A DNA stretch of 42,488 nt from a virus. Both the position numbers and the translations under genes were made by a program. The notes beneath the pieces were generated by a model that was not told the DNA's origin, made no database searches, and saw nothing but the letters and a program-made list of their open reading frames with translations. Below, piece by piece: positions 7,824 through 31,806 of this stretch. The DNA is taken from IMG/VR virus record IMGVR_UViG_3300012920_000085, positions 1 to 42,488 of that record; one strand, given 5' to 3'. Position 1 is the first letter of the stretch; each line of letters starts with the position of its first letter.

Positions 7824-8966
7824 ATGAAAGTCTTAGTATTCGGCGATGTTATTGTAGACAAATATGTTTATGGCACTAGTTCAAGAATTAGTCCTGAGGC
7901 GCCAGTACCAATTGTTAATATTGATAGAGTTTCGACCTCTTTGGGAGGTGCTGGACTTGTATTAGAAAATTTAAAAAATTTAGATATAGATGCAACACTT
8001 GTTCATAACAATCAAAATAGAAGTACTAAAACAAGAATAATATCAGATGGACATTATATTACTAGATTAGATGAAGATGAACATGCTGATGCAGATGCTG
8101 TTTTACAACAAGTATTACAAAGTGATTTTGCACCATACGACTATGTTATTCTAAGTGATTATAACAAAGGTTCATTAGATCATACACAAAAAATAATAAA
8201 TCATATAAACAAATTTGGTTGTAAAATAATTGTTGATCCTAAACGTAATGCATCTGAATATAAAGGTGCATGGCTAGTAAAACCAAACTATAACGAATTT
8301 TACAAGTTTGGATTTGACAAATGGCAAGGAAATATTATTACCACTAATGCAGGGAAAGAGGTAATTGCTAATATTGACGGAGAAAATTATAATATACCTG
8401 TTGAGAATGTAGAAGTAGCAGATGTAACAGGTGCAGGAGATTGTTTTATAGCAGGATTTGTATTCGGATTAACAAAAGGATACAGTTATAAAAAATGCTT
8501 AGAAATCGCTATAAAAGGTTCAACTGAAAGTGTTAGACATAGTGGTACTTACAAATTAAAAAAAGAAGATCTTGAAAGCACAGTCGTTTTTACAAATGGT
8601 TGTTTTGATATTCTACATACAGGACATTTTGAATTATTAAAAGCCGCAAAAGAAAAAGGTGATAAACTTATTGTAGGATTAAATGATGACAGTAGTGTAA
8701 GAAGACTAAAAGGAGATAATCGTCCAATTAATCCTGTAGAAACACGTAAGAAACAATTAGAAATACTATCTTGGGTAGATGAAGTTATTGTATTCAGTGA
8801 AGACACACCTTATAACTTAATTAAATCACTTAAACCTAATTTGATTGTAAAGGGTGGAGATTATAAAGTAAATGAAGTAGTAGGACATGACTTAACTAGT
8901 GTATACATTGTGCCTACTGTTGAAGATTTTTCAACAACAAGTATACTTGAGAAGATAAATGAGTGA
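7824..8966 (+). CDS. hldE: Bifunctional heptose-7-phosphate kinase / heptose-1-phosphate adenylyltransferase
   Basis: Performs two steps of ADP-heptose synthesis: phosphorylation of D-glycero-beta-D-manno-heptose 7-phosphate at C1, then AMP transfer to heptose 1-phosphate. Residues 1-245 form a PfkB/ribokinase domain with GDVIVDKYVYGTSSRISPEA, nearly the E. coli HldE motif, substrate-side GGAG (41-44), DPKRNASEYKGAWLVKPNYN and the catalytic DVTGAGD (200-206, Asp206). Residues of about 253-380 form the cytidylyltransferase-like domain with NGCFDILHTGH (258-268), LKGDNRPINP, LIVKGGDYK and a C-terminal STTSIL. At 380 residues it is about 100 shorter than E. coli HldE (477); the shortening lies in the kinase domain and linker, but the motifs remain. 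It heads the cassette and its stop overlaps hldD by 8 bases. Confidence 0.9.
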   Translation: MKVLVFGDVIVDKYVYGTSSRISPEAPVPIVNIDRVSTSLGGAGLVLENLKNLDIDATLVHNNQNRSTKTRIISDGHYITRLDEDEHADADAVLQQVLQSDFAPYDYVILSDYNKGSLDHTQKIINHINKFGCKIIVDPKRNASEYKGAWLVKPNYNEFYKFGFDKWQGNIITTNAGKEVIANIDGENYNIPVENVEVADVTGAGDCFIAGFVFGLTKGYSYKKCLEIAIKGSTESVRHSGTYKLKKEDLESTVVFTNGCFDILHTGHFELLKAAKEKGDKLIVGLNDDSSVRRLKGDNRPINPVETRKKQLEILSWVDEVIVFSEDTPYNLIKSLKPNLIVKGGDYKVNEVVGHDLTSVYIVPTVEDFSTTSILEKINE

Positions 8967-9801
8967 TAGTTTAAAAATATTAATTACAGGCGCGGATGGA
9001 TTTATCGGCAAAAATTTAAAAGAATATCTTATGAGTAAAGGGCATGGGATTGCTGAATATGAATACATTGAAAATGTTGTCCCTGATTGTAGCCAGTTTG
9101 ATAAAGTAATACACATGGGTGCAATATCAAGCACAACCGAACGTGATGTAGAAAAAGTTCTAAAACAAAATTTAGATTTCAGTCATAGATTACTGCAAGT
9201 TTGTGACATGCAAGGTGTTGATTTAATTTATGCATCAAGTGCAAGTGTATACGGAGACGGTCAAAATTTTAATGAAGATGCTCCTAAACAACCGCAAAGT
9301 CCTTATTCGTGGTCAAAATATTTGTTTGATAGAAGCATTGAAATGTTGTCTTGGGATGACTACAAATGTAATATAAAAGGACTAAGATTCTTTAATGTAT
9401 ATGGAGAACATGAAGAACACAAAGGTGATCAAATGAGTGTGTTTCATAAATTTGCCAAACAAGCAAAAGAAACAGGCTCAGTACACCCATTTGTAGGAAG
9501 TAGTGATTATTTAAGAGACTTTATATACATAGGAGATGTATGCCAAATTATTGAAAAAATGATGCATATAGACGAAATGGGTATTTGGAATGTAGGCACA
9601 GGTGAAACAACAAGTTTTACAACCATTGCACATAGTATTGCAAAAAAATATAATGCAAAAGTAGAACCTATACCAATGCCTGAAAATTTAATTGGACAAT
9701 ATCAAAAATATACTTGTAGTGATAATACAAAATTACTAAAAACAATAGGTAAGTTTAAATTTACCAAACCGGAGGAATGGATAGAAACATGGAAAGACTA
9801 G
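8959..9801 (+). CDS. hldD: ADP-L-glycero-D-manno-heptose 6-epimerase (HldD-like)
   Basis: Epimerises ADP-D-glycero-D-manno-heptose to the L,D form, the donor used by heptosyltransferases. The 280-residue short-chain dehydrogenase/epimerase has an N-terminal Rossmann motif TGADGFIG (10-17), the HldD-specific SSTTE (57-61; E. coli ACSSTTEWD), YASSASVYG (91-99), catalytic YSWSK (Tyr116, Lys120) and LRFFNVYGEHEEHKG, which mirrors E. coli FRYFNVYGPREGHKG. That HKG region separates it from generic sugar epimerases. It is slightly shorter than E. coli HldD (310). It overlaps hldE by 8 bases and the cupin gene by 13 bases, indicating coupled translation. The donor product would suit the GT9 enzyme encoded at 22315-23283. 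Confidence 0.88.
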   Translation: MSDSLKILITGADGFIGKNLKEYLMSKGHGIAEYEYIENVVPDCSQFDKVIHMGAISSTTERDVEKVLKQNLDFSHRLLQVCDMQGVDLIYASSASVYGDGQNFNEDAPKQPQSPYSWSKYLFDRSIEMLSWDDYKCNIKGLRFFNVYGEHEEHKGDQMSVFHKFAKQAKETGSVHPFVGSSDYLRDFIYIGDVCQIIEKMMHIDEMGIWNVGTGETTSFTTIAHSIAKKYNAKVEPIPMPENLIGQYQKYTCSDNTKLLKTIGKFKFTKPEEWIETWKD

Positions 9802-10214
9802 AAGGTAAAGTAGATAAAGGTTGGGGGTTCGAATTAATTTGGGCCACTAATGATTTATACTGCGGTAAAATGATGGTGTTTACTAAAAAAGGAAATAAAT
9901 TTAGTATGCATTTCCACAAAGAAAAAGACGAGAGTTGGTTTGTAAATGAAGGTAGTTTTATTGTACGTTGGATCGATACTAAAACAGCCACACTATTCAG
10001 TCAAACACTTACACAAGGAATGACATGGCGCAACAAACCTTTGTTGCCACATCAATTAGAAGCATTAGAGGATAACAGTAGTATTACAGAAGTTAGCACT
10101 GCTGATAGTGTAGAAGATAATTATAGGCTTATTCCAGGAGATAGCCAAGCCGGATTGTTGGATGAAATAAAAGGAAAAGTAGCAGATGAACAACCCAAAG
10201 ATAGTATGGAGTGA
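9789..10214 (+). CDS. Cupin-domain protein (sugar-phosphate isomerase-like)
   Basis: A small single-domain cupin (141 residues). Motif 1 is complete, G-x5-HxH-x4-E-x6-G, with His41, His43, Glu48 and the closing EG, and a second motif with PLLPHQLEAL supplies a further histidine, giving a full metal site. The GWGFELIW start and HFHKEKDESWFV resemble the cupin of type II mannose-6-phosphate isomerases and related sugar-processing enzymes. I chose ATG 9789 because GGAGGA at 9771-9776 is 12 bases away; the in-frame ATG at 9777 directly touches it. The gene lies between hldD and gmhB with overlaps on both sides, so a heptose-pathway role (isomerisation, epimerisation or regulation) is likely but unproven. 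The window has no GmhA, but nothing shows that this cupin replaces it. Confidence 0.75.
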   Translation: MERLEGKVDKGWGFELIWATNDLYCGKMMVFTKKGNKFSMHFHKEKDESWFVNEGSFIVRWIDTKTATLFSQTLTQGMTWRNKPLLPHQLEALEDNSSITEVSTADSVEDNYRLIPGDSQAGLLDEIKGKVADEQPKDSME

Positions 10215-10815
10215 TGATGTCAACATCGACATGTATAAACCAGATTACATTGCACCTAAGTGTGTAGTTGGTTTAGACAGAGACGGTGTAATTAATAAAG
10301 ACATTAATGATTACGTATATAAAGTAGAAGATTGGGAATTTGAAGATGGTAGTTTAGAAGCAATCGTTAAATTACGGAAGTTAGGGCATAAAATTGTTAT
10401 TATCACCAACCAAGGCGGAATTGAAAAAGGTATTTACAAACAAGAAGATGTAGAAAAATTACACGAACATATGTTTCAGCAGTTAGGGATAGCAGGATGT
10501 CCTAGCATAGATGGATTATATTATAGTGCAAGTAGTTCAAAAAAAGATATGTTTGCTAAACCTAATACAGGAATGTTTAAGCGTTGTGAACAAGAAGTAA
10601 AACATGTAAAATTTAATAAAGGATATTTTGTTGGAGATAAAATATCGGACCTAAAAGCCGCAATTAAAATAGGGGCAAAACCTATATTAGTTCGCACAGG
10701 ATACGGCAAAGAAACAGAAGAATTAATAAACAAAAGATTTACATATAGAAATTTAAGAAAAGCAACAAGAATATTTGACAATCTTGCGGCTTTTGTTAAT
10801 ATGCTAGATGAATAA
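10186..10815 (+). CDS. gmhB: D,D-heptose 1,7-bisphosphate phosphatase (GmhB-like HAD phosphatase)
   Basis: Removes the 7-phosphate from heptose 1,7-bisphosphate between the two HldE steps. The 209-residue HAD-family protein has the catalytic DRDGVIN (nucleophile Asp31, acid Asp33), ITNQGGIEKG (Thr74), AKPNTGMF (Lys125) and FVGDKISDLKAA (Asp151, Asp155), the order and wording of GmhB/histidinol-phosphatase enzymes. Unlike E. coli GmhB, the loop at about 112-131 lacks the zinc-binding cysteine/histidine cluster; it reads YYSASSSKKDMFAKP. The start at 10186 has AAGGA about 10 bases upstream and overlaps the cupin gene by 29 bases. An N-terminal extension of about 25 residues precedes the HAD core. 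It is the last gene of the plus-strand block; its TAA directly abuts the stop codon of the opposing giant gene. Confidence 0.8.
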   Translation: MNNPKIVWSDDVNIDMYKPDYIAPKCVVGLDRDGVINKDINDYVYKVEDWEFEDGSLEAIVKLRKLGHKIVIITNQGGIEKGIYKQEDVEKLHEHMFQQLGIAGCPSIDGLYYSASSSKKDMFAKPNTGMFKRCEQEVKHVKFNKGYFVGDKISDLKAAIKIGAKPILVRTGYGKETEELINKRFTYRNLRKATRIFDNLAAFVNMLDE

Positions 10816-19651: not shown

Positions 19652-21454
19652 CTATGCGTTTTTAACTGTGATTAACTTGTTAAATTCAGGAAGATATAGG
19701 TATTCTATATCACTATTTTGTAGGGTCCAAATAGCATCTTCAAGTGTTTCAACAAGTGGTTCACCGCCTAGGTTAAAACTAGTATTGAAAATAATTGGGC
19801 AACCTGTCTGATTTTTGAATTCAGTTATAAGATCATAATAGTGTTTATTTTGTTCTCTAGTAACTGTCTGTATTCTACATGTTCCGTCTACGTGTATTAT
19901 AGCAGGAATTTTTTCTTCTACACCAGGCTTGCAGTTTACAGCATACATCATGCTAGGACTATCTTCCATACCACGTAGATCAAACCAATCATGCACATCA
20001 TCTTGTAAGATAGTTCCAGCAAATGGTCTAAAATATTCTCTGTGTTTAACTTTATTAACATGATCTTTGCCATCAGGATCTGTTGGATCATATAATACAC
20101 TTCTATTACCTAATGCTCTAGGACCGTTTTCACTTTGTCCTTGGAATATAGTTACAATATTTCTTTCAGTAATTAATTTAACTACGTCTTTATGAGTTGC
20201 ATCTGTTAATTCTACACCTGCTTCTTCTGCTTTTGTTACAATATCTTCTTTTGTATAATTGTTATGAGGTCCAAGATATAATGTTTGTGTCTGACGTTTT
20301 TCTGTTTCATCTTCTAAGCCATACCAAAACATCATAGCGGCACCCATTGCTGTACCAGCATCATTACTTACAGGTTCAACGTAAATTTTAATACCGTCAT
20401 CTTTTAATTGTTCTAGATAGTGATAGTTTGCAACACAATTTAATCCATACCCGCCACTAATGACTACATTCTTTTTGCCTGTCAAATCAACTGCATCTTT
20501 TATTAATTGGGTAACTTTTTCTTGTGTTTCAGTTTGTACAGCGTATGCAATATCACGTCTACTTTGTAGTAAAGTAAGATCAGCATCAGGAGAATCTCCT
20601 ACTTCTGATAATTCTTTGTAAAGTCCAGCGTTAATTAATGCGCCATTAGGATAATTTGGTATAACAATATTCCTATTTGTTAACGGATAGTCTGCACCTT
20701 CTTCAAATAATTTTGGAAATTTATCGTTTGGTTTACCATAAGGAAATAGTCCCATAGTTTTACCTGCTTCTATACTCTGCCAACCACAATACATAGTTGC
20801 GGCTTCGTATGCTTTAACTATTCCTGCTCTGTCACTTACAACTGCTGAGTGTGTTCGTCCATTTTCTCCAAATTGTGTGCTATCCATTTGAACTATACCA
20901 CCTTGTATTGGATCTCTTGTACCATAAACTTTATGTAATGTGTTAAAAGTTGCTGGATAATCACAATCAATAATACTTTCTACTTCCCAACTCATTACCT
21001 GTTCATTGTTTACACCAATAGGAACAAATGTACCTGCGCCGTCAACAATTACACTTACTGCACTATCAAATCCTGAACGATAAAAAGCACAAGCACTGTG
21101 TAATTTATGATGCATAAATGCAAGATCAATAACTTGAGGATGTTCATAAGTTTGTGCATTTTTCTTTTTGTCAATCAAACCTAACTTACGTGCTAAACCT
21201 GTGTAAACATCATCTCCGCTATAATCAATTCTACCTGCTGTTTCAAGTAATTTTTGTGTATGGGCAACAACAAGATAATCTAATTTATCTGTGTATTCAA
21301 GTATTTTAACCATACTAGCGAATGGACCGCCATCGTATTTTTGTCTGCTAAGGCGTTCTTCTTCAACAGCAAATACTACTTCGCCGTCTTTTAATAAACA
21401 TACGCCTGCATTATGTCCTCTTGCTATACCTGCTATCCAAACTGGCTTGCTCAT
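19652..21454 (-). CDS. O-carbamoyltransferase, NodU/CmcH family
   Basis: Transfers a carbamoyl group from carbamoyl phosphate, via carbamoyl-adenylate, to a hydroxyl of a sugar or similar acceptor. The 600-residue length matches NodU/CmcH. The N-terminal Kae1-like domain shows GHNAGVCLLKDGEVVFAVEE (His14), MHHKLHSACAFYRSGF with metal-binding His115/His116/His119, and SVIVDGAGTF (Asp138). The C-terminal domain has the signature GQSENGPRALGNRSVLYDP near residue 437 and NKVKHREYFRPFAG. All expected motifs are present, so it is likely active. It is the last gene of the GT9-SGNH-carbamoyltransferase operon, 3 bases after the SGNH stop, with AGAGGA as ribosome site. Context suggests the acceptor is the glycan built by the neighbouring glycosyltransferase. 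Confidence 0.9.
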   Translation of the reverse strand: MSKPVWIAGIARGHNAGVCLLKDGEVVFAVEEERLSRQKYDGGPFASMVKILEYTDKLDYLVVAHTQKLLETAGRIDYSGDDVYTGLARKLGLIDKKKNAQTYEHPQVIDLAFMHHKLHSACAFYRSGFDSAVSVIVDGAGTFVPIGVNNEQVMSWEVESIIDCDYPATFNTLHKVYGTRDPIQGGIVQMDSTQFGENGRTHSAVVSDRAGIVKAYEAATMYCGWQSIEAGKTMGLFPYGKPNDKFPKLFEEGADYPLTNRNIVIPNYPNGALINAGLYKELSEVGDSPDADLTLLQSRRDIAYAVQTETQEKVTQLIKDAVDLTGKKNVVISGGYGLNCVANYHYLEQLKDDGIKIYVEPVSNDAGTAMGAAMMFWYGLEDETEKRQTQTLYLGPHNNYTKEDIVTKAEEAGVELTDATHKDVVKLITERNIVTIFQGQSENGPRALGNRSVLYDPTDPDGKDHVNKVKHREYFRPFAGTILQDDVHDWFDLRGMEDSPSMMYAVNCKPGVEEKIPAIIHVDGTCRIQTVTREQNKHYYDLITEFKNQTGCPIIFNTSFNLGGEPLVETLEDAIWTLQNSDIEYLYLPEFNKLITVKNA

Positions 21455-21457
21455 AAT

Positions 21458-22318
21458 TTAAAATCCTCTGTAATAATTATTACGATCACTTATTTTATCT
21501 TCTATATTTTCACAAAACACATCAAAATCTTTATGACATGTCTCATACAATTTGTTAATAGTATCTATCCAATAATTTGTTTTTTTGGTTTGTTTTTGGC
21601 TTATGCCTAAACTAGGTAAAACATGTTTGTCTAAATAATCTTTATGTTGTTGTATTGTTGGATGCCTATCTATAGCAAACACTGCTTGATCTTGCATAGA
21701 TTTAAATTTATACGGCTTCAATTCGTGATTCCAAGCAAATGTTCCTACTGGCATAATCCATTTTGTTTCATCATCAAATATTTTTTTATATACTTTTAAA
21801 CTAGGCTGGCTTTCCCAAACATTAATATCCGAAGTTTGTTCTCCATGTTCTCCATCAGGGTAATCACTATTCATTTTATTAATATATCCCATACTTGTCA
21901 TTCGCCAATTACATCCTATACCGTTTAAAAATTCTTGTGTTAATAGTATGTTATTGAATGTATGCATTATATAACTAGTTTCAGACCAAAAAGTTTTTAT
22001 CCACTTTTCATCAAATATTTCTTGGTTAATATAGTTAAACAAACTTCCTGAAGTTTTCCAACCTGCATTGTCTTGATGTCTGGTATCAGTTGCATGCCAG
22101 TCATGTCTTAAATGACTAGTCCACTGTATTACAACTGTATCATCTTTTGTTAATTTGTTTTTTGCGTGGATTTCTGCAACACGTTCTGCTATTGCTCTGT
22201 TGCCTAATCCTGGAAATGCCCAATTTTCGTATTCATCAAATTCTAAGCCTAACATGTCTGCCCAAGTAGGCCATGCGTAATTGCTAAACGAACATCCTAA
22301 AACATATAGTCGGGTCAT
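21458..22318 (-). CDS. SGNH/GDSL-hydrolase-like protein
   Basis: A 286-residue protein that opens LYVLGCSFSNYAWPTWADML, with GCS (Ser10) in place of GDS as the block I nucleophile motif. NWAFPGLGNRAI resembles block II with its oxyanion glycine, and DDTVVIQWTSHLRHDW lies in the block III region. Near the C-terminus AIDRHPTIQQHKDYLDK supplies an Asp-x-His like block V. Such proteins act as esterases, deacetylases or acetyltransferases on sugars; here the reaction is unknown. The ATG overlaps the stop of the glycosyltransferase by 4 bases (ATGA) and the carbamoyltransferase follows after 3 bases, so all three are probably translated together and act on one substrate. An alternative is a non-catalytic phage protein retaining this fold. 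Confidence 0.6.
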   Translation of the reverse strand: MTRLYVLGCSFSNYAWPTWADMLGLEFDEYENWAFPGLGNRAIAERVAEIHAKNKLTKDDTVVIQWTSHLRHDWHATDTRHQDNAGWKTSGSLFNYINQEIFDEKWIKTFWSETSYIMHTFNNILLTQEFLNGIGCNWRMTSMGYINKMNSDYPDGEHGEQTSDINVWESQPSLKVYKKIFDDETKWIMPVGTFAWNHELKPYKFKSMQDQAVFAIDRHPTIQQHKDYLDKHVLPSLGISQKQTKKTNYWIDTINKLYETCHKDFDVFCENIEDKISDRNNYYRGF

Positions 22319-23283
22319 TCTTCTTTAGGTTCATCTGTTTTTTCGTTGTCTGGATCGATTTCGCCTTTTATTACACCAATAATATAATCTTGGATAGCAT
22401 CGTCCATTTGCATAAGTTTTTCATTGTGTCTATTAACAGTTTCGTCTACTGTAATCCTAATAGGATCATATAATCTATCACTCATTCCAAGGTCTACAAT
22501 TTTAATTCCTTCTTGCTTAGGATAACTTACGTTTATAGGAAAAGTTGCACCTATTACTGCTGTAGTAGGCGTATCAACAGCGTATGCTAAATGCTGTCCG
22601 ACACTATCACAACCTAAAAAATGATCACAATACTTTATCATACCTGCCCACTGACGTAATGAAAGTCCTTCTGGCATGGCTACTTCATGTTTTAACCCTT
22701 CGCCTTTCAGTTCCATTTTCATTTCGCTCATCATAACAAGAGCATAATCTTTTTCTAATTTTTTTAGTATAGATTTTAAATCTTTAAATTCAAAACTACG
22801 TCCAGTAGTATCTATTGGAGTATCGTCTAGTAGTTCTATTCCTCTACCAAACGGTTGAATACAAATAACTTTATCTTTTTTAATTTTTTCTTTTACTTCA
22901 TTTACTAATTTACGACCAACAAGAAGTTCGTCTTTGCTAAAATGTATAGCAGGTTTGTTTAATTTCCTTACACCTTTATTATTAAAAATTATATCAAATG
23001 CTTGCGATAGGCTACATTTTTGATTGTAATATTCCCACACTTGGTACGGTTCAGGATTAACAACTTGTCTATGTTTTATAATATCGTCAAACAAGTTTTT
23101 GTGCCAAGGATCGTATGCACGTTTATGTAATGTTGGATGACCTTTAAACATGTCAGTGCCACCTTCACATACTATTACAAAGTCTTTATCACCTGATTCT
23201 TCTGCATATAACTCAAGTGCAGGTATTGAACATAGCATACGGCCTGCGCCACCGTTTAGAAAAAATGCTTTACTTCTAGTCAT
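22315..23283 (-). CDS. Glycosyltransferase family 9 (heptosyltransferase-like)
   Basis: A 322-residue protein with the GT9/GT-B layout of ADP-heptose:LPS heptosyltransferases. The N-terminal loop NGGAGRMLCSIPALELY (10-26) aligns with WaaC/WaaF G-D-x-L-x-T-x-P-A-L. The linker and donor domain include VICIQPFGRGIEL near residue 145. The donor-binding signature HFLGCDSVGQHLAYAVDTPT with Asp226 and His231 corresponds to the family GxDSGxxHLA-A-x3-P motif, followed by AVIGATFP. The Asp proposed as catalytic in WaaC (GD) is Arg15 here, so mechanism or acceptor may differ. The tail is acidic. It is the first gene of the operon, with GGAG 11 bases before the ATG and a terminator just upstream. The phage's own ADP-heptose cassette makes a heptose donor likely; the acceptor is unknown. 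Confidence 0.78.
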   Translation of the reverse strand: MTRSKAFFLNGGAGRMLCSIPALELYAEESGDKDFVIVCEGGTDMFKGHPTLHKRAYDPWHKNLFDDIIKHRQVVNPEPYQVWEYYNQKCSLSQAFDIIFNNKGVRKLNKPAIHFSKDELLVGRKLVNEVKEKIKKDKVICIQPFGRGIELLDDTPIDTTGRSFEFKDLKSILKKLEKDYALVMMSEMKMELKGEGLKHEVAMPEGLSLRQWAGMIKYCDHFLGCDSVGQHLAYAVDTPTTAVIGATFPINVSYPKQEGIKIVDLGMSDRLYDPIRITVDETVNRHNEKLMQMDDAIQDYIIGVIKGEIDPDNEKTDEPKEE

Positions 23284-23377: not shown

Positions 23378-24073
23378 TTATTGATCCGCTGGATCTACAT
23401 ACATTGGTAATACTGTATCTGGATAAGGAATTTTCCAATGATTAATATCTGCATATTTTGTTGGAATAGACTCTAACCATGTAGCATGATCACCTAATGT
23501 TTTCTTTTCGGCATCTGTTAAGTTATTGTGTGCGTCACCGTCTGATGATAATGCACGTCTAATACCTGCCGCCATGTCTGCCCATGTAGCCAAAGTATCT
23601 GCTCTTGAATTATTATGCTCACGTAATACCGGATTTCTCCATGTTTTTGTTTCATGATTGTATAATAGGCTGTCACCCACATAAATGTGTGCTAACATAC
23701 CTGTTGTACCTTCATAAACATGTGTCCATGTGTATTTGTCACCGTCTGCATCAGTAATTTCTTCTGAATAATCTGCTACATCTGGGTGTGTGTATTCATC
23801 TGTAATAAATGCACAACGCATAGCCATTTCGTCGCTTTCGTTAGCATCCATTACGATGTAATCATATTCATCTGGCTCGTAACCAGTTGCATCTAACGCT
23901 GGATCGTCTGCTGACGAATCACTGCGTCCTGCTTCTCTAACTTGGTCGTCGTCTTTATCGACCTGTGCTAAGATCCATCTTGGACCTATATACGTACATT
24001 CAAACGTATTACCTTTTGTAGTGGCCGTTTTATACGGCTCATCTGCATAGGTTACTGTAAAAGTTTTGTTCAT
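23378..24073 (-). CDS. Acidic virion-associated protein, possible tail assembly chaperone
   Basis: A 231-residue acidic protein. The N-terminus (TFTVTYADEPYKTATTKGNT, then TYIGPRWILAQV) looks like a small beta domain. The C-terminal part LTDAEKKTLGDHATWLESIP followed by HWKIPYPD resembles the end of phage tail-assembly chaperones of the Tfa/Phage_tail_APC type (W-x2-Y/L-x2-L-x2-IP ... W-x-IP-xP), here preceded by RADTLATWADMAAGIRRAL. That is a pattern-level match only. Context supports it: it follows two adhesin-like cysteine-rich genes, as Tfa-type chaperones follow their fibres. GGAGA lies 7 bases before the ATG and a CATAAATA promoter at 24095-24102. A strong terminator follows. Alternative: an unrelated small virion protein. 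Confidence 0.5.
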   Translation of the reverse strand: MNKTFTVTYADEPYKTATTKGNTFECTYIGPRWILAQVDKDDDQVREAGRSDSSADDPALDATGYEPDEYDYIVMDANESDEMAMRCAFITDEYTHPDVADYSEEITDADGDKYTWTHVYEGTTGMLAHIYVGDSLLYNHETKTWRNPVLREHNNSRADTLATWADMAAGIRRALSSDGDAHNNLTDAEKKTLGDHATWLESIPTKYADINHWKIPYPDTVLPMYVDPADQ

Positions 24074-24094: not shown

Positions 24095-24102
24095 TATTTA
24101 TG
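24095..24102 (-). promoter_or_regulatory. Late-type promoter (CATAAATA) overlapping a stop codon
   Basis: Minus-strand TCATAAATAAACAG. The TAA inside the element is the stop codon (24098-24100) of the preceding cysteine-rich gene. It is placed about 22 bases before the 24073 ATG. Confidence 0.65.
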
Positions 24103-25057
24103 ACGATTCTACGTATTTGATTCTAATTAAGGCATCACCGCCTGCCCAGCCATTATCTCTAACACCTGAACATGGAGTAGCCGCTGGACCACCTGATCCA
24201 TGTGGCACAAACATTGAACAACCCTGCGTATCATAACAACCACATGCTCGAACACCGTTCCAACATTGTGACCAATATGTACCACCGCCTGGCATTCTTG
24301 ACATAGAATTTAGTGCCGACTGATATCCATTAAGTGCTTGTCCAGACCATCTGCCGTGACCGTTATCATCATCTAAACTATATGATGCAACACCGCCACA
24401 CTCACTAAACATGCCTGGTGGTAATGCAGTGTGGTGAATAGTTGAACAATTACAGTTTGGATAGCAATGCCAAAATGTAACACAACTGTTTACACCGCCT
24501 CTGTTAATATCTCCACCGTATGCAACGTTTTTCCAACTGTTATTACATGCATTACAAATGATACCGCAGTATCCATTGTAAGATGTACCGCACCAGTTAT
24601 TTGCCATAAAACAACATCTTCGTGCAGTTCCTGTTGTACACCAACTTGCTCCTGACCAACCGCCCTGAGCACACATACACCCGTTGTTTCCACTATTACC
24701 TGTCCAGCAAACTCTGCCTGATTCTGAACAGCCTCTATGACAGAGACTACCATTTCGACAACTTTTGCCTGCGTGTCCACATATGTAACAACCTGATGAT
24801 ACTGTAATTTCTTTTCTTGCGTATGCGCCTGAGTTACCTGATATTGTTGCCGAACAACAACACATTCTCGAACCGCCTCCGCCTGCTCCCCATACTTCTA
24901 ACGTAACTGCTCCAGTTCCTGGGGAGATCCAACAGAAACAACCTGGATAAGTTGAATATGTAGCAATGTTAGAGTAAGACCAAATCTTGCCTTTTTCTAA
25001 ATTGTCCTCTGTGAACGGGGACGCTCTGCTTGCTAATAATGCTTTTAATCCTGGCAT
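24098..25057 (-). CDS. Cysteine-rich, glycine-rich virion protein, copy 1 (adhesin-like)
   Basis: A 319-residue protein with about 30 cysteines, many as CCC, CC, CxC or CxxC. After a short N-terminal segment (LKALLASRASPFTEDNLEKG) comes VTLEVWGAGGGGSRMCCC, the EVWGAGGGG entry of glycine-rich tail-fibre domains. Cys/Gly/Asn-rich loops follow, then conserved AYGGDINRGG, LPPGMFSECGGV and a C-terminal strand GGDALIRIKYVES. It has no signal peptide or enzyme motif. By analogy with glycine-rich phage tip adhesins it may be a receptor-binding or fibre-tip protein, but the cysteine content is exceptional; disulfides or bound metal could rigidify it. AGGAG precedes the ATG. It lies 15 bases after its paralogue and before the chaperone-like gene. 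Confidence 0.62.
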   Translation of the reverse strand: MPGLKALLASRASPFTEDNLEKGKIWSYSNIATYSTYPGCFCWISPGTGAVTLEVWGAGGGGSRMCCCSATISGNSGAYARKEITVSSGCYICGHAGKSCRNGSLCHRGCSESGRVCWTGNSGNNGCMCAQGGWSGASWCTTGTARRCCFMANNWCGTSYNGYCGIICNACNNSWKNVAYGGDINRGGVNSCVTFWHCYPNCNCSTIHHTALPPGMFSECGGVASYSLDDDNGHGRWSGQALNGYQSALNSMSRMPGGGTYWSQCWNGVRACGCYDTQGCSMFVPHGSGGPAATPCSGVRDNGWAGGDALIRIKYVESS

Positions 25058-25072
25058 ATTCTACTCCTGTTC

Positions 25073-26029
25073 CTAACTTTCTATAAACTTAATTCTAATT
25101 GCACCCATACCGCCACGTGTTGCGTGATCTCTCACACCTGGACAAGGTTGAGGTCCTGGACCACCTGTTCCATATGGCATTGTACTTTGACAACCGTTTG
25201 TATTGTAACAACCACAACTAGTATCATTTTGGTAACATGCTTTCCATGTTAATCCTTGACCTGGTGATCTACCTGTTCCGTTAATTGCGGCAGTTGCTTC
25301 AAACTGTCCCATACCTGACCAACGTGAGTGTGCTGAGTCATCTGACATACCGTACTGTACAACACCGCCACACTCTGAAATCATTCCTGGAGGAAATGCT
25401 AACATGCCTCTAAATAAACATACACATGCCGGACGGCAACCATGAAAGCCCATACATGATATGTTTCCACATCTATTAATATCTCCACCATATGCTATAG
25501 CGTCCCATTGTCCTGTACACTGATTACATATTGTTCCACAGTTTGGTCCTGTGTTAGTATAACAAAATCCGTTTGCTCTAAAACAACAGTACATACTTGT
25601 ACCTGTTGAGCAGTAACTTACTCCGCCTTTACCACCTCTAGCACACATACAACTGTTTCCTGACGCCGCTACCATACAAACCATTGTTGGTTCTGAACAG
25701 CCTCTGAAACATAATGCGTCTGAGTTACCACATGCAAAACCTGTACATCCATACAAGTAATCTGATGTAGTCATTACTTTTGTTGTTTTTGAATAAGCAC
25801 CTGAGTTGCCTGGTAATCCATTACCACAACAACACATTTTTGCGCCTGATCCTCCAGCACCCCATACTTCGATTATGGCTGTACCGTTTGAACATGGGCA
25901 CCAACATGTACACTTACAAAATTTGCTGTAAGTATTACCTTCAGAGAAACTATATAACCTACCTGTTTCTAAGTTATCTTCTGCTGAGGGCGGACTTTTC
26001 GCCTTAATTAATGCTTCTAATGATGCCAT
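25073..26029 (-). CDS. Cysteine-rich, glycine-rich virion protein, copy 2 (adhesin-like)
   Basis: A 318-residue paralogue of the next gene with about 33 cysteines. The shared frame is LEALIKAKSPPSAEDNLETG, AIIEVWGAGGSGAKMCCC, GNSGAYSK, RGCSEP, CMCARGGKGG, AYGGDINRCG, PPGMISECGGV, PGVRDHATRGG and the end GAIRIKFIES. Most cysteines line up between the two copies while the residues between them differ strongly, suggesting a conserved Cys scaffold with variable loops, as expected for a surface-exposed binding protein. The extra CKCTCWCPC near residue 38 is unique to this copy. AGGAG precedes the ATG. It is probably in one transcript with 24098-25057. The function is inferred from composition and context only. 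Confidence 0.62.
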   Translation of the reverse strand: MASLEALIKAKSPPSAEDNLETGRLYSFSEGNTYSKFCKCTCWCPCSNGTAIIEVWGAGGSGAKMCCCGNGLPGNSGAYSKTTKVMTTSDYLYGCTGFACGNSDALCFRGCSEPTMVCMVAASGNSCMCARGGKGGVSYCSTGTSMYCCFRANGFCYTNTGPNCGTICNQCTGQWDAIAYGGDINRCGNISCMGFHGCRPACVCLFRGMLAFPPGMISECGGVVQYGMSDDSAHSRWSGMGQFEATAAINGTGRSPGQGLTWKACYQNDTSCGCYNTNGCQSTMPYGTGGPGPQPCPGVRDHATRGGMGAIRIKFIES

Positions 26030-26041
26030 GTGCTTCTCCTA

Positions 26042-26374
26042 TTATACCGAGCCAATTATCCAACCGTATGTAGATCCGCTATAAATTAATGTAACGATAG
26101 CACCACTAACATCAATTGTTAGATTTTCTGCGGCACCGTTCATTAAACTTCCGTTTCTACCAACAGTAAGATTATTGTTTGCCGCATTGTTTGAAATGTC
26201 GATAATTTGTATTGTATCGCCATCAAGTAATGAAGCGTTTGCTGGTAATGTAATAGTGTATGCTGAACTGGCTGTGTTTGCTAAAACTCTATCATTTACC
26301 GAGGCACTAAAAGTTGTACTTACTTCTCTAGTAGTAGCACCAGCAGTACCTATTGTTGTTATATATCTTCCCAT
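26042..26374 (-). CDS. Small beta-rich virion protein
   Basis: A 110-residue protein. The sequence AYTITLPANASLLDGDTIQI, then NNNLTVGRNGSLMNGAAENL and TLIYSGSTYGWIIG resembles a recurring virion module of marine T4-like phages: strand, TLP, GD-x-I, NLTVGRNG, YS-STYGW. It may be a single fibre-type beta domain that trimerises. GGAGAAGG lies before the ATG and a CATAAATA promoter at 26395-26402. No biochemical function can be assigned. Confidence 0.65.
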   Translation of the reverse strand: MGRYITTIGTAGATTREVSTTFSASVNDRVLANTASSAYTITLPANASLLDGDTIQIIDISNNAANNNLTVGRNGSLMNGAAENLTIDVSGAIVTLIYSGSTYGWIIGSV

Positions 26375-26394: not shown

Positions 26395-26402
26395 TATTTA
26401 TG
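26395..26402 (-). promoter_or_regulatory. Late-type promoter (CATAAATA) overlapping a stop codon
   Basis: Minus-strand GCATAAATACATAGG. The TAA is the stop codon (26398-26400) of the upstream small gene; the ribosome site of the downstream gene follows within about 10 bases. Confidence 0.68.
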
Positions 26403-26718
26403 CTGTAGACGTTTCAATGCCCATAGCGACTGCTGATATGTTAGCGCCTGAAGCGTAACATACAATTTTTTGTCCTGCGGCTAGTACGATACCTGTTCGT
26501 TCTAGGACACCTTTGGACAGTAATTCAGTGTCAAATTCAATGTATTCACCATTTGTTGGTGTATCCAATGCGGCAACAGCAATTCTTATTGACGTTGCCT
26601 GGTTTCCTCTGTTGCAAAGGTTAATACTTGCAACCGCATAGTTATCAGTAGGACATGTATATACTGTAGTATTTGCTCCTCCTGCTAAATCTGATGCGCC
26701 TATTCTTCCTGTTGCCAT
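26398..26718 (-). CDS. Small virion protein (beta-sandwich-like)
   Basis: A 106-residue protein with alternating strands: VASINLCNRGNQATSIRIAV, GEYIEFDTELLSKGVLERTG, IVLAAGQKIVCYASGANISA. Size, strand pattern and the sequence around the last strand resemble the 109-residue product at 37517-37846 (KDVMIPPQTAF, KIVLPTGHQLIVQASQTASV), so the two are probably distant paralogues. In both cases they sit beside a fibre-type gene. CGGAGAAAG precedes the ATG. A role as a fibre accessory or cap protein is plausible but unproven. Confidence 0.6.
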   Translation of the reverse strand: MATGRIGASDLAGGANTTVYTCPTDNYAVASINLCNRGNQATSIRIAVAALDTPTNGEYIEFDTELLSKGVLERTGIVLAAGQKIVCYASGANISAVAMGIETSTA

Positions 26719-26730
26719 TTACTTTCTCCG

Positions 26731-29700
26731 TTAATTATTTAGGAACATACTTAATGCTACTGGAGCACCGTCTATTCCACCTTTAAAGTTTACTGCGTTA
26801 AGTATATTTATCCTACCGCCGTCTGTCGTTGATATTTGGTTTTGAGTAACCTCAATAACACCTGCTGTTACACTGTTTACGTTCAATGTAGCAACACCAC
26901 CACCAATTTGTGATGTGATGTATGTTTTGATTGCTTTTTGTGTTGGAACAACATTATCACTATCAGCACTAAACGTACCGTCTGTGCTAAATTCAGTAAT
27001 AACTGCTCCTGCACCACCAAGTGCAACACTTCCTAGTTGTAATTCGTTCAATCCTGAAATATTAAACGCTTCAACATTCAATGTTGCAATACCAGTAGCC
27101 TGCTCAACGTTAAACAGTCCACCTACTCTAAAGTTACCATCTTGGTCTGTACTTGTGTAGAACACTCTTCCGCCACCAAAATCATTAGTTTCATATTGTG
27201 GATTTGGATCTACTAAAGGTGTTCCTGGATAATTTGTATTTGCAAAGTTTCCTGTACCAATATCCAAGAAATCGTGTCCAGTTAAACGCACCTGCGAATA
27301 ACGTCTACGTATTGTAATTGCATCATCGTGTGGTGGTCTTTCTGATGCTTCTAATGGTGGACTTACTTGTAATAATGCACTGTAAGGTCCTGCACCTAAT
27401 AAACTTGTTATGCTAACAAGTTTGAACCATCTATTTGGTAAACTTGCAAATTCTACATTTGCTCCTTTTTGTGGAACCAAACTTAAATTATCAACTCTAA
27501 TTTTTGTACCAGACTGTCTAATATCTGCAAAACCATCACCTACAACTTCTGCCGCCGCAGTAATAAATCCTGTACCTCTATTAGAGAAAGTAGGTTGTGC
27601 TAGTACACCGTTACCAATTCTAATTGAATGTGGCACCATAATTGTGTGACTTGGATCAACTATTGTCATTTGTGGTGCAACAGTATACCCGCTACCTGGT
27701 TCAATTATTTTAACTTCTACAACTTTTTCATCTGCTACTCTTGCTCTACCTCTTGCTCTTGTACCACTAGTAGGTGCTGTAAATATTACTCTAGGAGTAA
27801 TATCATATGCTGTTGTTGCATCAAGTGTATTTGCAATTGATGAACCTTTAATATGTTCGAAACCTGCTGTACCATCTGACTCTTTTACAATAGTTGCAAT
27901 TTTTGTTGATGCATTAAATGATGAAATTACTCCATATTGTCCTGCACCTAATCCGCTTAAAATATAAAGCATCATACCATTGTATGTGCCGGTTGGTTCA
28001 ACATCAGTTGCCGCTAGTGTAATTTGTGTAGCGTTACCTGCTTGAGCATTTGATGCTATAGTTTTGAAACCTGCACCACCATATGTACTTGAGTCTTGAT
28101 CAAGTTGTACTTCAAACACACCGCCGTTACGTATAACTGGTGCACTTACTGCGGCTCCGAAACCTTCACCGGTAAGTGTGTATCTTGTTGCCGCACCAAT
28201 TGTTTCAACATCGAATGTTACATTAGCCGCGCCACCGCCTCCTAGTAATGAATCATTTACTGTAATTGTATCATTGATTGCGTGTCCAGTACCACCTTTA
28301 ATTACTGTTACTTGAACTCCGCCAACTGAAGTTATTTCAATATCAAATTCTTGTCCTGTACCAGAACCATTACTTGCACCTGTAATACCTTTATATGTTC
28401 CCTTAACTCTAGCAGGATCATTATTGCTAATATTATCTACTGTAAGGATTGCAGTTGTTGCTTCTGTAGTATAGCCTGTACCAGCATTTGAATATTCTAG
28501 TTGTAATATTTCATTTGCACCATCTGTAACAACATTTGAAATCTGTGCTTCAAGTTGTTGGTTATCAACTTTACCTGTTACAGGACTTTCTGTAACATCA
28601 ATACCTTCAGCAACTGAACCAAAGTCTCCGTATGAGTTGTTTCCGTTTGTAGCACGAATCTTACCACCGTTTTCTGCTAGGTAACCAATATGGTTGTAAT
28701 ATGTAAACACAGAAACAAGTTCTGATCTACCTAAGTTTGTAACCCAATAACCAATACCGTCACTTAAAATTTGTGTAAAGTCGTTTGCAACGATTGAATC
28801 ATTACCACCGTTGTGTAAGTCACCATCTACTTTTAAGCCTATACATGCTGTACCAAATGTAGTAACATTTTGTACGTATGGGGATTTATTAGTAATCCAA
28901 GCATCTGTATGATCTGGTCCCCAACTTGGATCTAATGATACATAAGCACCCGAACTTGGACGTTTTGTACCATAACTATTAGCACCGCTAAGTGTACCAC
29001 TTAATCCAGTTAGTGTACAGTTTCTTAAACCTGTTCCGTTACGTGCATAGAACATATCATTTAAAAAGTTACCTGATACTGAATTTACATAATATTTTCC
29101 GTTTAGTAATGTTCTATAATTACCAGTGTAAATTAAATCATGTTTAACACCATCTATATAAGCGTTTACATCTCTTGCACAAGCCGCTAGTGTATATGTG
29201 TAACTTGGATAAGTTACTGCAATATAAGCATGTACTTCTGCAATTATAAAGTCTCTGTTTGCTTCTAATACTTCAACAGCATATGTGTATCCTGTTGATG
29301 TTTCTGGGTCATTTGAACCACGCATAACTGGCTCTGAACTATCTCCACTAACACCGTTAACGCCCCAATCTATATAATCTCTAAGTTCTCTAAATAAGTT
29401 TGCTGTTGCTGTACCTGCACTTGCACTACCTGCAGGTCTTGTTGTTACCTGTGTTGCACTATTGCCTGTTGATTTTGTAATTGCAACGTTTTGTACAATA
29501 TTGCTTACGACTGCTTCTATTCGCTCAATAGCCGCAATACTTTTTGGAACATCTGCCGCATTTGTTTGACTTGGTGCTGGTGTTATTCTTGTTGAACGAA
29601 GTTCGTCACCAACAATAGCAACATCTTCTGGAATAATAATTGGAAGTACTTCTTGATATTCTCCAGTTTTAACAAATATAGTTTTTTGTGCATGTAATTC

Positions 29701-31806
29701 TGCTGGAACATTATTAATATTTCCTGCTGTAATTGCATTTGTAATAATGTCAATCAAAGCCGCAATAGTTGTAGTTGTACCGGTTGTTGCTTCATATGCA
29801 CTTAATTTTTGTTGTGTAATCGGACTTGCAACACTGTTTAATGTTTGATAATTTGCCGCTGGATCTGTTTTTGCAAGAATGTTTGGCATAATACTATCTA
29901 AGTAATTTATAGCCGCCACAGTTTGTGCTTCTTGACCACTAATATAACTTAATCCACCAGGTGTAAAATATGCTAGAGCCGATTCTCTTGATCGCACATT
30001 GCCTCCGTGACTTAAATCCCATGCAATAGCATCAATAATTATACCTGTATCTCTACGACATTTTGCTTTGTCGTATGTAAACGCTCCTGTAAATGGTGAA
30101 ATAGCATTTGCAATTTGATAATCAACCCATTCTACAACTTCTGCTTGTAAAAATGATCTGTTTGCTTCTATTAAAATTCTATCATTTTGATTTACGGAAC
30201 CATCTCTAATTTGTTCTGTTGCAAAACGTATAGTTTTGAAAGGTCTATCTAATGTAATACCTCTATCCGGAGTTTTTCCGTCAACCCCATTTGCTGTATC
30301 TACATAGTAAATATGATTTATTGCTCCAAAGTATGTCCACTCAGGTGCAGTTTGTGCATCATTAACTTTTAATACCTGTCCTGGTTTACCAACTGGTAGT
30401 CTTGCAGGACCTGAACCACCGTAGTAAACAATGTCACCAACTGTAGTTAAGTTTCCTGATTCTGCACCACCACTCATAAAGTTCCAAAATGCTCCGCCTG
30501 TATCGTTAGCAGGATCATTTACTCCATTACTTGAAGTGTGTGATTGTACTGCGATGTAACTGTTCACACCTTGTTGCACAGTATCACCTAAGTCATAATA
30601 TGTTGCATCAGTCCAAGTGTTTCTCCAGTTTGCACCTTCATTTAATTTTTCCCAATAAGTTAAATTAGGTGGTCTTACGCCATTTGAATTTGCTATTGCA
30701 AGATAAGTGTATCCACCTACTCTAACAACATCACCTGTTCTATAATCTTGGTTTGCACTATCATCTCCATAGTCACCCCTTAGATTAAATCCAGTTGCAA
30801 ATACGTCCCAGTCACTTGGATTATCTGTTGGATGTTTTTCTGTATTGTTTGTTTTTGCAACATAAGTGTATCCACCGTATGTTACAATATCACCTGGCTG
30901 GTAATCTGAATAAGGTCCCCAACTATCTTCAAATTCTAATCCTGGAACAAATTGTGCCCAGTTTGCTTCATCAGTTTTTAAATCTGCCGCAACGCTTGAA
31001 GTATGATGAGTTGTACAAATCCATAATCCACCAGAGTCTTTTACAACATCATTAACTTTGTATCTAAATGCACTTGCCCATTCACCTAAGTATTCAATAC
31101 CTTTGTGAAAGTAATCCCATTTTGCTTGGTCTGCTTCAAGACCTAGTGTACCGGTTGCCGCAGAAGTATGACCTGTGTTACAAGAATAAACTTGTCCACC
31201 ATATTTAACTAAGTCACCTACGGTATAACGTGTGCCAGTTGCCCAATCTGTTTTCCACATGAATCCGTCACTAATGACATCCCATGATGCTTGATTTAAT
31301 TCTAATCCTGATGTAGTATTTGGCGCACTTACATGATATCCTGTACAAATATAAATTCTTGATCCATATTTTACAATATCATTTACTTTATAACGTGTGT
31401 TGATTGCCCAGTTGCCTTTATAGTCGAAGCCCTCACCGTATAAATCCCAATATGCTGAAGTACTGTCATCTCCTAGGTTACTTTCCAAACCACCAATGGC
31501 ACTTGCGTCTGAAATGTGTCCTGTGTTACAAATGTAAAGTTGTCCACCATATTTTACAATATCATTTATTCTATAAACTGCACCAGTTGCCCAGTCACCT
31601 CTCCAAGTTTGACCGTCTGCAAACTGTTGCCACTTAGGTGTAGAATCGTTTAGATCTAACATAAAGTCAGTTTGAGATATGTGTCCTACTACACACATAA
31701 ACGTTTTACCGCCATATCTTACTACATCATCTTTGTAGTAAGTGGTTGCTTCAGACCATTCGTCCTTCCAAATAAATCTAATTCTACCTAATTTAAATTC
31801 TGCCAT
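26731..31806 (-). CDS. Large fibre-like virion protein 1 (carbohydrate-binding-type repeats plus beta-helix)
   Basis: A 1691-residue protein. Residues 1-450 are eight repeats of 50-60 residues with W-x5-T-x-Y-x4-D-x-V-x-YGG-x2-Y-x-C-x3-HTS, like CBM5/12-type chitin-binding modules. A beta-helix-type region follows (IYYVDTANGVDGKTP, FKTIRFATEQI, TIFVKTGEYQEVLPIIIPED), interrupted by two modules with CRRDTGIIIDAIAWDLSHGG and CARDVNAYIDGVKHDL. Residues of about 940-1130 (YVSLDPSWGPDHTDAWITNK, ILSDGIGYWVTNLGRSELVS) match fibre 2. The C-terminal part holds LTGHDFLDIGTGNF, YTSTDQDGNFRVGGLFNVEQ and VPTQKAIKTYI, also shared. GGAG precedes the ATG; promoter at 31830-31837. Most likely a tail fibre or side spike that touches surface polysaccharide; catalytic activity is not evident. 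Confidence 0.8.
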   Translation of the reverse strand: MAEFKLGRIRFIWKDEWSEATTYYKDDVVRYGGKTFMCVVGHISQTDFMLDLNDSTPKWQQFADGQTWRGDWATGAVYRINDIVKYGGQLYICNTGHISDASAIGGLESNLGDDSTSAYWDLYGEGFDYKGNWAINTRYKVNDIVKYGSRIYICTGYHVSAPNTTSGLELNQASWDVISDGFMWKTDWATGTRYTVGDLVKYGGQVYSCNTGHTSAATGTLGLEADQAKWDYFHKGIEYLGEWASAFRYKVNDVVKDSGGLWICTTHHTSSVAADLKTDEANWAQFVPGLEFEDSWGPYSDYQPGDIVTYGGYTYVAKTNNTEKHPTDNPSDWDVFATGFNLRGDYGDDSANQDYRTGDVVRVGGYTYLAIANSNGVRPPNLTYWEKLNEGANWRNTWTDATYYDLGDTVQQGVNSYIAVQSHTSSNGVNDPANDTGGAFWNFMSGGAESGNLTTVGDIVYYGGSGPARLPVGKPGQVLKVNDAQTAPEWTYFGAINHIYYVDTANGVDGKTPDRGITLDRPFKTIRFATEQIRDGSVNQNDRILIEANRSFLQAEVVEWVDYQIANAISPFTGAFTYDKAKCRRDTGIIIDAIAWDLSHGGNVRSRESALAYFTPGGLSYISGQEAQTVAAINYLDSIMPNILAKTDPAANYQTLNSVASPITQQKLSAYEATTGTTTTIAALIDIITNAITAGNINNVPAELHAQKTIFVKTGEYQEVLPIIIPEDVAIVGDELRSTRITPAPSQTNAADVPKSIAAIERIEAVVSNIVQNVAITKSTGNSATQVTTRPAGSASAGTATANLFRELRDYIDWGVNGVSGDSSEPVMRGSNDPETSTGYTYAVEVLEANRDFIIAEVHAYIAVTYPSYTYTLAACARDVNAYIDGVKHDLIYTGNYRTLLNGKYYVNSVSGNFLNDMFYARNGTGLRNCTLTGLSGTLSGANSYGTKRPSSGAYVSLDPSWGPDHTDAWITNKSPYVQNVTTFGTACIGLKVDGDLHNGGNDSIVANDFTQILSDGIGYWVTNLGRSELVSVFTYYNHIGYLAENGGKIRATNGNNSYGDFGSVAEGIDVTESPVTGKVDNQQLEAQISNVVTDGANEILQLEYSNAGTGYTTEATTAILTVDNISNNDPARVKGTYKGITGASNGSGTGQEFDIEITSVGGVQVTVIKGGTGHAINDTITVNDSLLGGGGAANVTFDVETIGAATRYTLTGEGFGAAVSAPVIRNGGVFEVQLDQDSSTYGGAGFKTIASNAQAGNATQITLAATDVEPTGTYNGMMLYILSGLGAGQYGVISSFNASTKIATIVKESDGTAGFEHIKGSSIANTLDATTAYDITPRVIFTAPTSGTRARGRARVADEKVVEVKIIEPGSGYTVAPQMTIVDPSHTIMVPHSIRIGNGVLAQPTFSNRGTGFITAAAEVVGDGFADIRQSGTKIRVDNLSLVPQKGANVEFASLPNRWFKLVSITSLLGAGPYSALLQVSPPLEASERPPHDDAITIRRRYSQVRLTGHDFLDIGTGNFANTNYPGTPLVDPNPQYETNDFGGGRVFYTSTDQDGNFRVGGLFNVEQATGIATLNVEAFNISGLNELQLGSVALGGAGAVITEFSTDGTFSADSDNVVPTQKAIKTYITSQIGGGVATLNVNSVTAGVIEVTQNQISTTDGGRINILNAVNFKGGIDGAPVALSMFLNN
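30450..31795 (-). repeat. Eight CBM-like coding repeats at the N-terminus of fibre protein 1
   Basis: Units start near W-x-G/D-x-W and contain YKVNDIVKYGG-type cores, for example YRINDIVKYGGQLYICNTGH, YKVNDIVKYGSRIYIC and YTVGDLVKYGGQVYSC. The last two units (YRTGDVVRVGG, YDLGDTVQQGV) are the most divergent. The second fibre has the same number at the same place. Confidence 0.78.

Follow-up and report, generated by a model that had tools for sequence, protein, structure and literature searches.

Two adjacent cysteine-rich proteins, here called paralogues A and B, are in all likelihood adhesins of the distal tail-fibre tip of a marine T4-like phage. They are encoded in a linear virus record of 42,488 bases, which is the whole stretch of DNA that we analysed and which we call the window; matches to T4-like phages were obtained with its tail, neck, and fibre genes. 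The base fold and the role of A and B are of already known kinds. In the literature searched, which leaves out most subscription papers, we found no account of the cysteine-rich variant, of its three copies, or of its recurrence on unrelated scaffolds, nor any paper on cysteine-rich cyanophage tip proteins.

Two Cysteine-Rich Paralogues

The two genes lie next to each other on the minus strand:

24098..25057, minus strand: paralogue A, 319 aa with 30 cysteines, predicted second tip adhesin subunit; PHROG 4205, separate orthologous clade.
25073..26029, minus strand: paralogue B, 318 aa with 33 cysteines, predicted TNF-like plus glycine-rich tail-tip adhesin subunit.

The preliminary description had announced two neighbouring paralogues of about 318 residues with roughly 10% cysteine, and this was borne out by the translated open reading frames, in which cysteine makes up 9.4% of A and 10.4% of B, the counts varying with the choice of start codon. 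Also present are the announced clusters, namely CCC at residues 66–68 and CC at 148–149, along with a dense set of CxC motifs, and both the glycine core (EVWGAGGGG in A, EVWGAGGSG in B) and the IRIK-F/Y-x-ES end (IRIKYVESS in A, IRIKFIES in B). A and B are 47% identical and have 28 cysteine columns in common, with 2 further columns specific to A and 5 to B, and glycine reaches 16% overall in both. The other 25 larger open reading frames of the window contain only 0–2.8% cysteine, and therefore the richness of A and B is not due to the composition of the window.

Gene Neighbourhood at the Fibre End

A and B are surrounded by the following genes:

26731..31806, minus strand: long tail-fibre-like protein, 1691 aa, directly upstream, in the position of the tail fiber gene of P-SSM2, S-SSM7, and S-CAM1.
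26398..26718, minus strand: small fibre protein s106, 106 aa, matching phrog_11338 (tail fiber, E 8.9e-10); it adjoins the cysteine-rich genes in relatives.
26042..26374, minus strand: small fibre protein s110, 110 aa, matching phrog_31104 (E 4e-17).
23378..24073, minus strand: putative tip chaperone, 231 aa, matching phrog_9740 (E 1.2e-6); same place in relatives.
22315..23283, minus strand: GT9-like (heptosyltransferase-type) glycosyltransferase, matching PF01075 with 22.5 bits (cut-off 22).
19652..21454, minus strand: NodU-like carbamoyltransferase, matching PF16861 (E 8.7e-59); same place in relatives.

The order that recurs in relatives is long fibre, s106, s110, two or three cysteine-rich genes, chaperone family, GT9, and carbamoyltransferase. 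In S-SSM7 the s110 homologue is fused to the fibre, given that residues 1380–1473 of SSSM7_113, at the C-terminal tail-fibre end, match phrog_31104; the s110 homologue is thus the C-terminal end of the S-SSM7 long tail fibre, and it follows that the cysteine-rich genes come after the fibre end. The chaperone function was assigned through the family, since the phrog_9740 member SSSM7_118 carries the Phage_tail_APC domain (PF16778) above cut-off. The candidate of the window has no PF16778 match, and its AF2 model (pLDDT 94.9), with a β N-terminal part and a helical C-terminal part, has no fold match in the PDB, including Pam3 gp25 and Mu Tfa, so its role in tip folding is called putative here. 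Two further genes were observed around this end of the locus: a 286-aa gene of the window (21458-22318) matches nothing in Pfam or NCBIfam and shows a dN/dS of 0.13–0.30, the highest in the locus, and in Sf-FS3 a gene of the 2OG-Fe prolyl-hydroxylase type (L198:9305-9937) lies between the genes in the chaperone and GT9 positions.

Predicted Fold and Closest Known Systems

The AlphaFold2 model, obtained with a 71-row alignment, has a pLDDT of 80.5 and a pTM of 0.80, and its top PDB match in Foldseek is the Pam3 tail fibre (7ypx_A, E 1.4e-4, prob 1.00), with modest TM-scores of 0.40 by query and 0.49 by target. It is followed by the Bxb1 tail tip and by the ALK and LTK glycine-rich domains, and in BFVD the model matches its homologues from S-CAM3 and P-SSM2, a large number of glycine-rich proteins from phages and giant viruses, and gp38 of Syn9. 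Pam3 gp24 is a homotrimer with a TNF-like and a distal glycine-rich domain (39% Gly), which forms a myophage fibre tip with gp25 as its chaperone (PMC9608196; PDB 7YPX). Judged on the predicted model, the fold of A and B would belong with this TNF-like/glycine-rich tip, with which they would share the domain plan, the place at the tip of a myophage fibre, and perhaps a dedicated chaperone. In contrast to the single homotrimeric Pam3 protein, two or three paralogues are encoded here, with about 10% cysteine and 16% glycine overall; because this falls short of the very high distal glycine of gp24, we file A and B as a variant of the gp24 type. The Pam3 paper mentions no cysteine or disulfide (PMC9608196).

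The gp38 of the T2/S16/PP01 type likewise forms a separate, glycine-rich tip on the long tail fibre, a polyglycine type II sandwich whose glycine lattice bears loops (PMC12892980), but these loops are hypervariable, whereas the A and B orthologues are conserved; moreover, this gp38 has no sequence match to A or B and is absent among the PDB fold matches listed. The glycine-rich gp36 and gp38 of Syn9 occupy the corresponding slot after the fibre genes, and gp38 is a fold match, but these proteins contain 22–35% glycine and merely 0.8–2.5% cysteine. Altogether, the tip adhesin role that the preliminary description had considered is supported by the conserved place between the long tail fibre and a gene of the chaperone family, as well as by the Pam3 gp24-like predicted fold. 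We infer from place and fold that both proteins would be present in the virion and would bind a receptor; no virion proteome of a phage carrying this locus was found in the literature searched.

Family and Distribution

Both proteins match the PHROG 4205 profile (A over residues 29–316, E 9.5e-11; B over residues 32–316, E 1.7e-12), a large marine phage family without an assigned function in PHROG and with about 8–12% cysteine throughout. Seventeen viral contigs contain close relatives (50–94% identity), and the wider family searches gave 160 stretches with a 28-sequence alignment and 89 with S-SSM7 gene 116; clustering at 90% yielded 192 representatives, again with about 8–12% cysteine. The homologues in the Kyanoviridae isolates P-SSM2 (PSSM2_304 and PSSM2_306, 36 cysteines each), S-SSM7 (SSSM7_114-116, 28–30 cysteines), and S-CAM1 (SXBG_00224-226, 25–36 cysteines) lie in the same place with 8–12% cysteine and are annotated as hypothetical, as are those of S-CAM3; their cysteine content, copy number, and role were found undescribed in the literature searched. 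A and B have no match to Pfam Gly_rich_2 (PF21722), while their relatives SXBG_00224 (40.4 bits) and SSSM7_114 (24.9 bits) pass its cut-off of 24.3, so that A and B are linked to PF21722 by a chain of homology only. When B, profile A2, and a S-CAM1 relative were compared by sequence with the solved structures, no meaningful match emerged.

A scan of 84,980 bacterial and archaeal species, with one genome per species, found only one locus, in a MAG contig with a phage-type locus. That contig, L205 (PAOW01000006.1) of a Euryarchaeota MAG, has two GT9-like genes at the phage locus and is probably misbinned phage DNA. As side observations, the A copy of one relative (L010:6958-7928) is split across two overlapping frames by a frameshift or a sequencing error, and a check for pointers to the host found psbA in none of nine relatives of the window and CsgG in none of six.

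Three Paralogues and Their Possible Assembly

Although the preliminary description had spoken of a pair, which holds for the two adjacent genes, comparison with relatives suggests at the sequence level that A and B are two of three paralogues. Loci of the S-SSM7 type have exactly three tandem copies in 78 of 79 cases, and when 27 contigs from the wider group around the window were searched over their full length, 24 proved to have exactly three, although some of these contigs are not independent of each other. In the three exceptions (G009, G011, and G020, with two, one, and two copies) the missing copies would fall beyond a contig end, judged by the spacing in relatives. The complete isolates S-CAM1, S-CAM3, S-SSM7, and Sf-FS3 have three copies, and P-SSM2 and its relatives have two. 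Copies sharing a position fall mostly in separate clades. In close relatives of the window, the third copy is found about 22 kb upstream of the pair, near the major head protein gene (e.g., L069:4001-4957), and the equivalent site for the window would be past its right end.

Since the TNF-like tip of Pam3 is trimeric and these genomes have three fixed, non-identical copies, we tentatively propose, as a possibility that falls somewhat short of probable, that the three paralogues form one heterotrimeric tip, against which stand the two copies of the P-SSM2 lineage and the third copy lying so far from the pair in close relatives. It is also conceivable, if rather doubtful, that the three copies are independent adhesins, acting on separate fibres or alternative receptors as a repertoire. 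Their divergence (about 45–55% identity), their separate clades, and the copy that may lie 22 kb away are consistent with this, but a repertoire would be expected to gain and lose members, yet three copies are present wherever they are countable outside the P-SSM2 lineage, and rapid loop change is seen in none of them.

The position of that third copy, among small structural-type genes next to the major head protein gene, also gives some support to A and B being adhesive fibres of the head or of another virion part instead of tail-fibre tips. We find this quite improbable, given that the A/B pair lies between the long tail-fibre gene and the chaperone-family gene, that three copies are together there in most relatives as well as in S-CAM1, S-CAM3, S-SSM7, and Sf-FS3, and that the predicted fold matches tail fibres and tail tips.

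Conservation of the Cysteines

Among 72 representatives, conservation reaches 95% or more in 23 of the 33 cysteine columns of B, and cysteine is the best conserved residue in sister pairs, being retained at 99.9% in the window group and at 99.7% in the S-SSM7 group. The number of cysteines per chain shows no parity (97 of the 192 representatives have an odd count and 95 an even one), nor is there any parity when the cysteines are summed over the three copies. Thus, not every cysteine can be in an intrachain disulfide, and complete pairing, per chain or over the three-copy sum, was rejected. The chains may instead be bonded in part or to one another, or have free thiols or metal sites. Only a few cysteine columns covary, in counts that ignore shared ancestry: 38 with 187 and 160 with 199; in addition, 118 exchanges with 120.

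Cysteine positions had been described as largely kept while the loops diverge; the first part stands with the 28 common columns, and the second is true between the paralogues but fails within orthologues, which are conserved throughout under purifying selection. The dN/dS of A and B is 0.10–0.17, like that of neighbouring genes, and the lowest mean identity to orthologues in any 20-residue segment is not below 0.59. Such dN/dS values and the lack of a hypervariable segment speak against variable receptor-binding loops, as had been suggested at first.

Unrelated Cysteine-Rich Proteins and the GT9 Gene

The GT9-like gene was found in 24 phage-collection records, one of them a weak match in an Aeromonas phage, and cysteine-rich proteins are encoded directly upstream of it in all nine cyanophage-type lineages (S-CAM1, S-CAM3, S-SSM7, Sf-FS3, P-SSM2, AG-345-F15, AG-345-E02, AG-345-P14, and AG-345-O18). 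In two of these, both phages known from single cells, the proteins have no similarity to the PHROG 4205 family by HMM or hhalign. AG-345-P14 has in the slot before GT9 a protein of 282 aa with 26 cysteines (L195:5117-5962), and AG-345-O18 has one of 758 aa with 73 cysteines (L196:8024-10297) and one of 290 aa with 31 cysteines (L196:10297-11166), followed by a gene that passes PF16778. By eye, both termini of the 758-aa protein resemble those of the 106-aa small fibre protein, as would result from the insertion of a cysteine-rich block into the latter. Relatives at 72–73% identity retain 24 of the 26 and 68 of the 73 cysteines. A remote common fold of the P14 and O18 proteins with the main family is possible; still, given that this slot holds equally cysteine-rich proteins of unrelated sequence, cysteine density tracks the locus and not the fold alone. 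AG-345-O18 also encodes a further 1087-aa protein (L196:15461-18721) with 26 cysteines, several of them close to the C-terminal end.

Genes for a near-complete ADP-heptose route are also present in the window, in the opposite orientation to its tail genes:

7824-8966: HldE-like gene.
8959-9801: HldD-like gene.
10186-10815: GmhB-like gene.

As a partner of the cysteine-rich tips, however, the heptose genes were rejected, because they also occur in S-T4, Sf-CH8, S-SM2, P-TIM68, and AG-345-E08 with no cysteine-rich gene within 20 kb; therefore, only GT9 is linked to these tips. That link, together with the presence of the three enzymes for ADP-heptose, would fit a glycosylated adhesin whose cysteines or other tip residues are substrates of the GT9-like enzyme, possibly by S- or O-heptosylation. 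We regard this as improbable, since the heptose genes are present in those cyanophages without a nearby cysteine-rich gene, and GT9 and such genes usually target lipopolysaccharide.

Proposed Chemistry of the Cysteines

The best reading is that the distal region is stabilised or functionalised by its cysteines. In the mechanism that we propose, each chain would, like Pam3 gp24, consist of a TNF-like β-sandwich continued distally by a glycine-rich domain, and would fold with the aid of the product of the adjacent chaperone-family gene. The approximately 30 conserved cysteines per chain would be reduced in the cytoplasm, and many of them would probably oxidise after lysis into oxygenated water, forming disulfides that lock the distal region, while some thiols would stay free or metal-bound. 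This explanation as a whole, with tip subunits, a Pam3-like fold, help from a chaperone, and cysteine oxidation, is in our judgement fairly likely. For its chemical part, that the cysteines are mostly in disulfides formed after release, the chances appear about even, which still makes it the likeliest of the chemistries considered; no DsbA or thioredoxin-family protein was found among 8 relatives searched, which speaks against it, as do cysteine counts without parity.

The same tip adhesins could use their cysteines mainly as metal ligands, with Zn, Cu, Fe, or Fe-S thiolate clusters that hold the distal region or ferry metal to host uptake receptors, a role already suggested for iron bound by histidines in the fibres of other phages. 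A cysteine number free of parity constraint, the dense CCC, CC, and CxC motifs, the conservation of cysteine above all other residues, and the equally cysteine-rich, sequence-unrelated proteins of the same slot all agree with this reading, but A and B match no recognised metal-binding family and have few histidines (7 in A and 3 in B). Also, metal-thiolate sites are oxygen-sensitive and vulnerable to competing ligands, and both threats are present in seawater. We hold metal ligation as the main use of the cysteines to be unlikely, even with the precedent of iron bound to the tail through HxH motifs, as described in T4 and suggested for phages of the sea (PMC11705849).

Conclusions

Proteins rich in cysteine are rare among phages, whose proteins fold in a reducing cytoplasm. 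The widespread family of probable tail-tip proteins described here has approximately 25–37 conserved cysteines per chain. The three-paralogue family and the unrelated cysteine-rich proteins in the same place point to a chemistry of host attachment that was not found described. In its strongest form, which we consider rather unlikely, the cysteine-dense tips would have a distinct adhesive chemistry, by thiol/disulfide exchange or metal-thiolate bonding, reached in the tail-tip slot on three or more scaffolds of unrelated sequence, with the main family as an obligate heterotrimer. The linked GT9 gene may bear on what the lipopolysaccharide-type genes of cyanophages do, a question raised previously (PMC3037559). 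Finally, these tip candidates are among the genes of model cyanophages that have long been annotated as hypothetical, and the isolates S-SSM7, S-CAM1, and P-SSM2 carry them.
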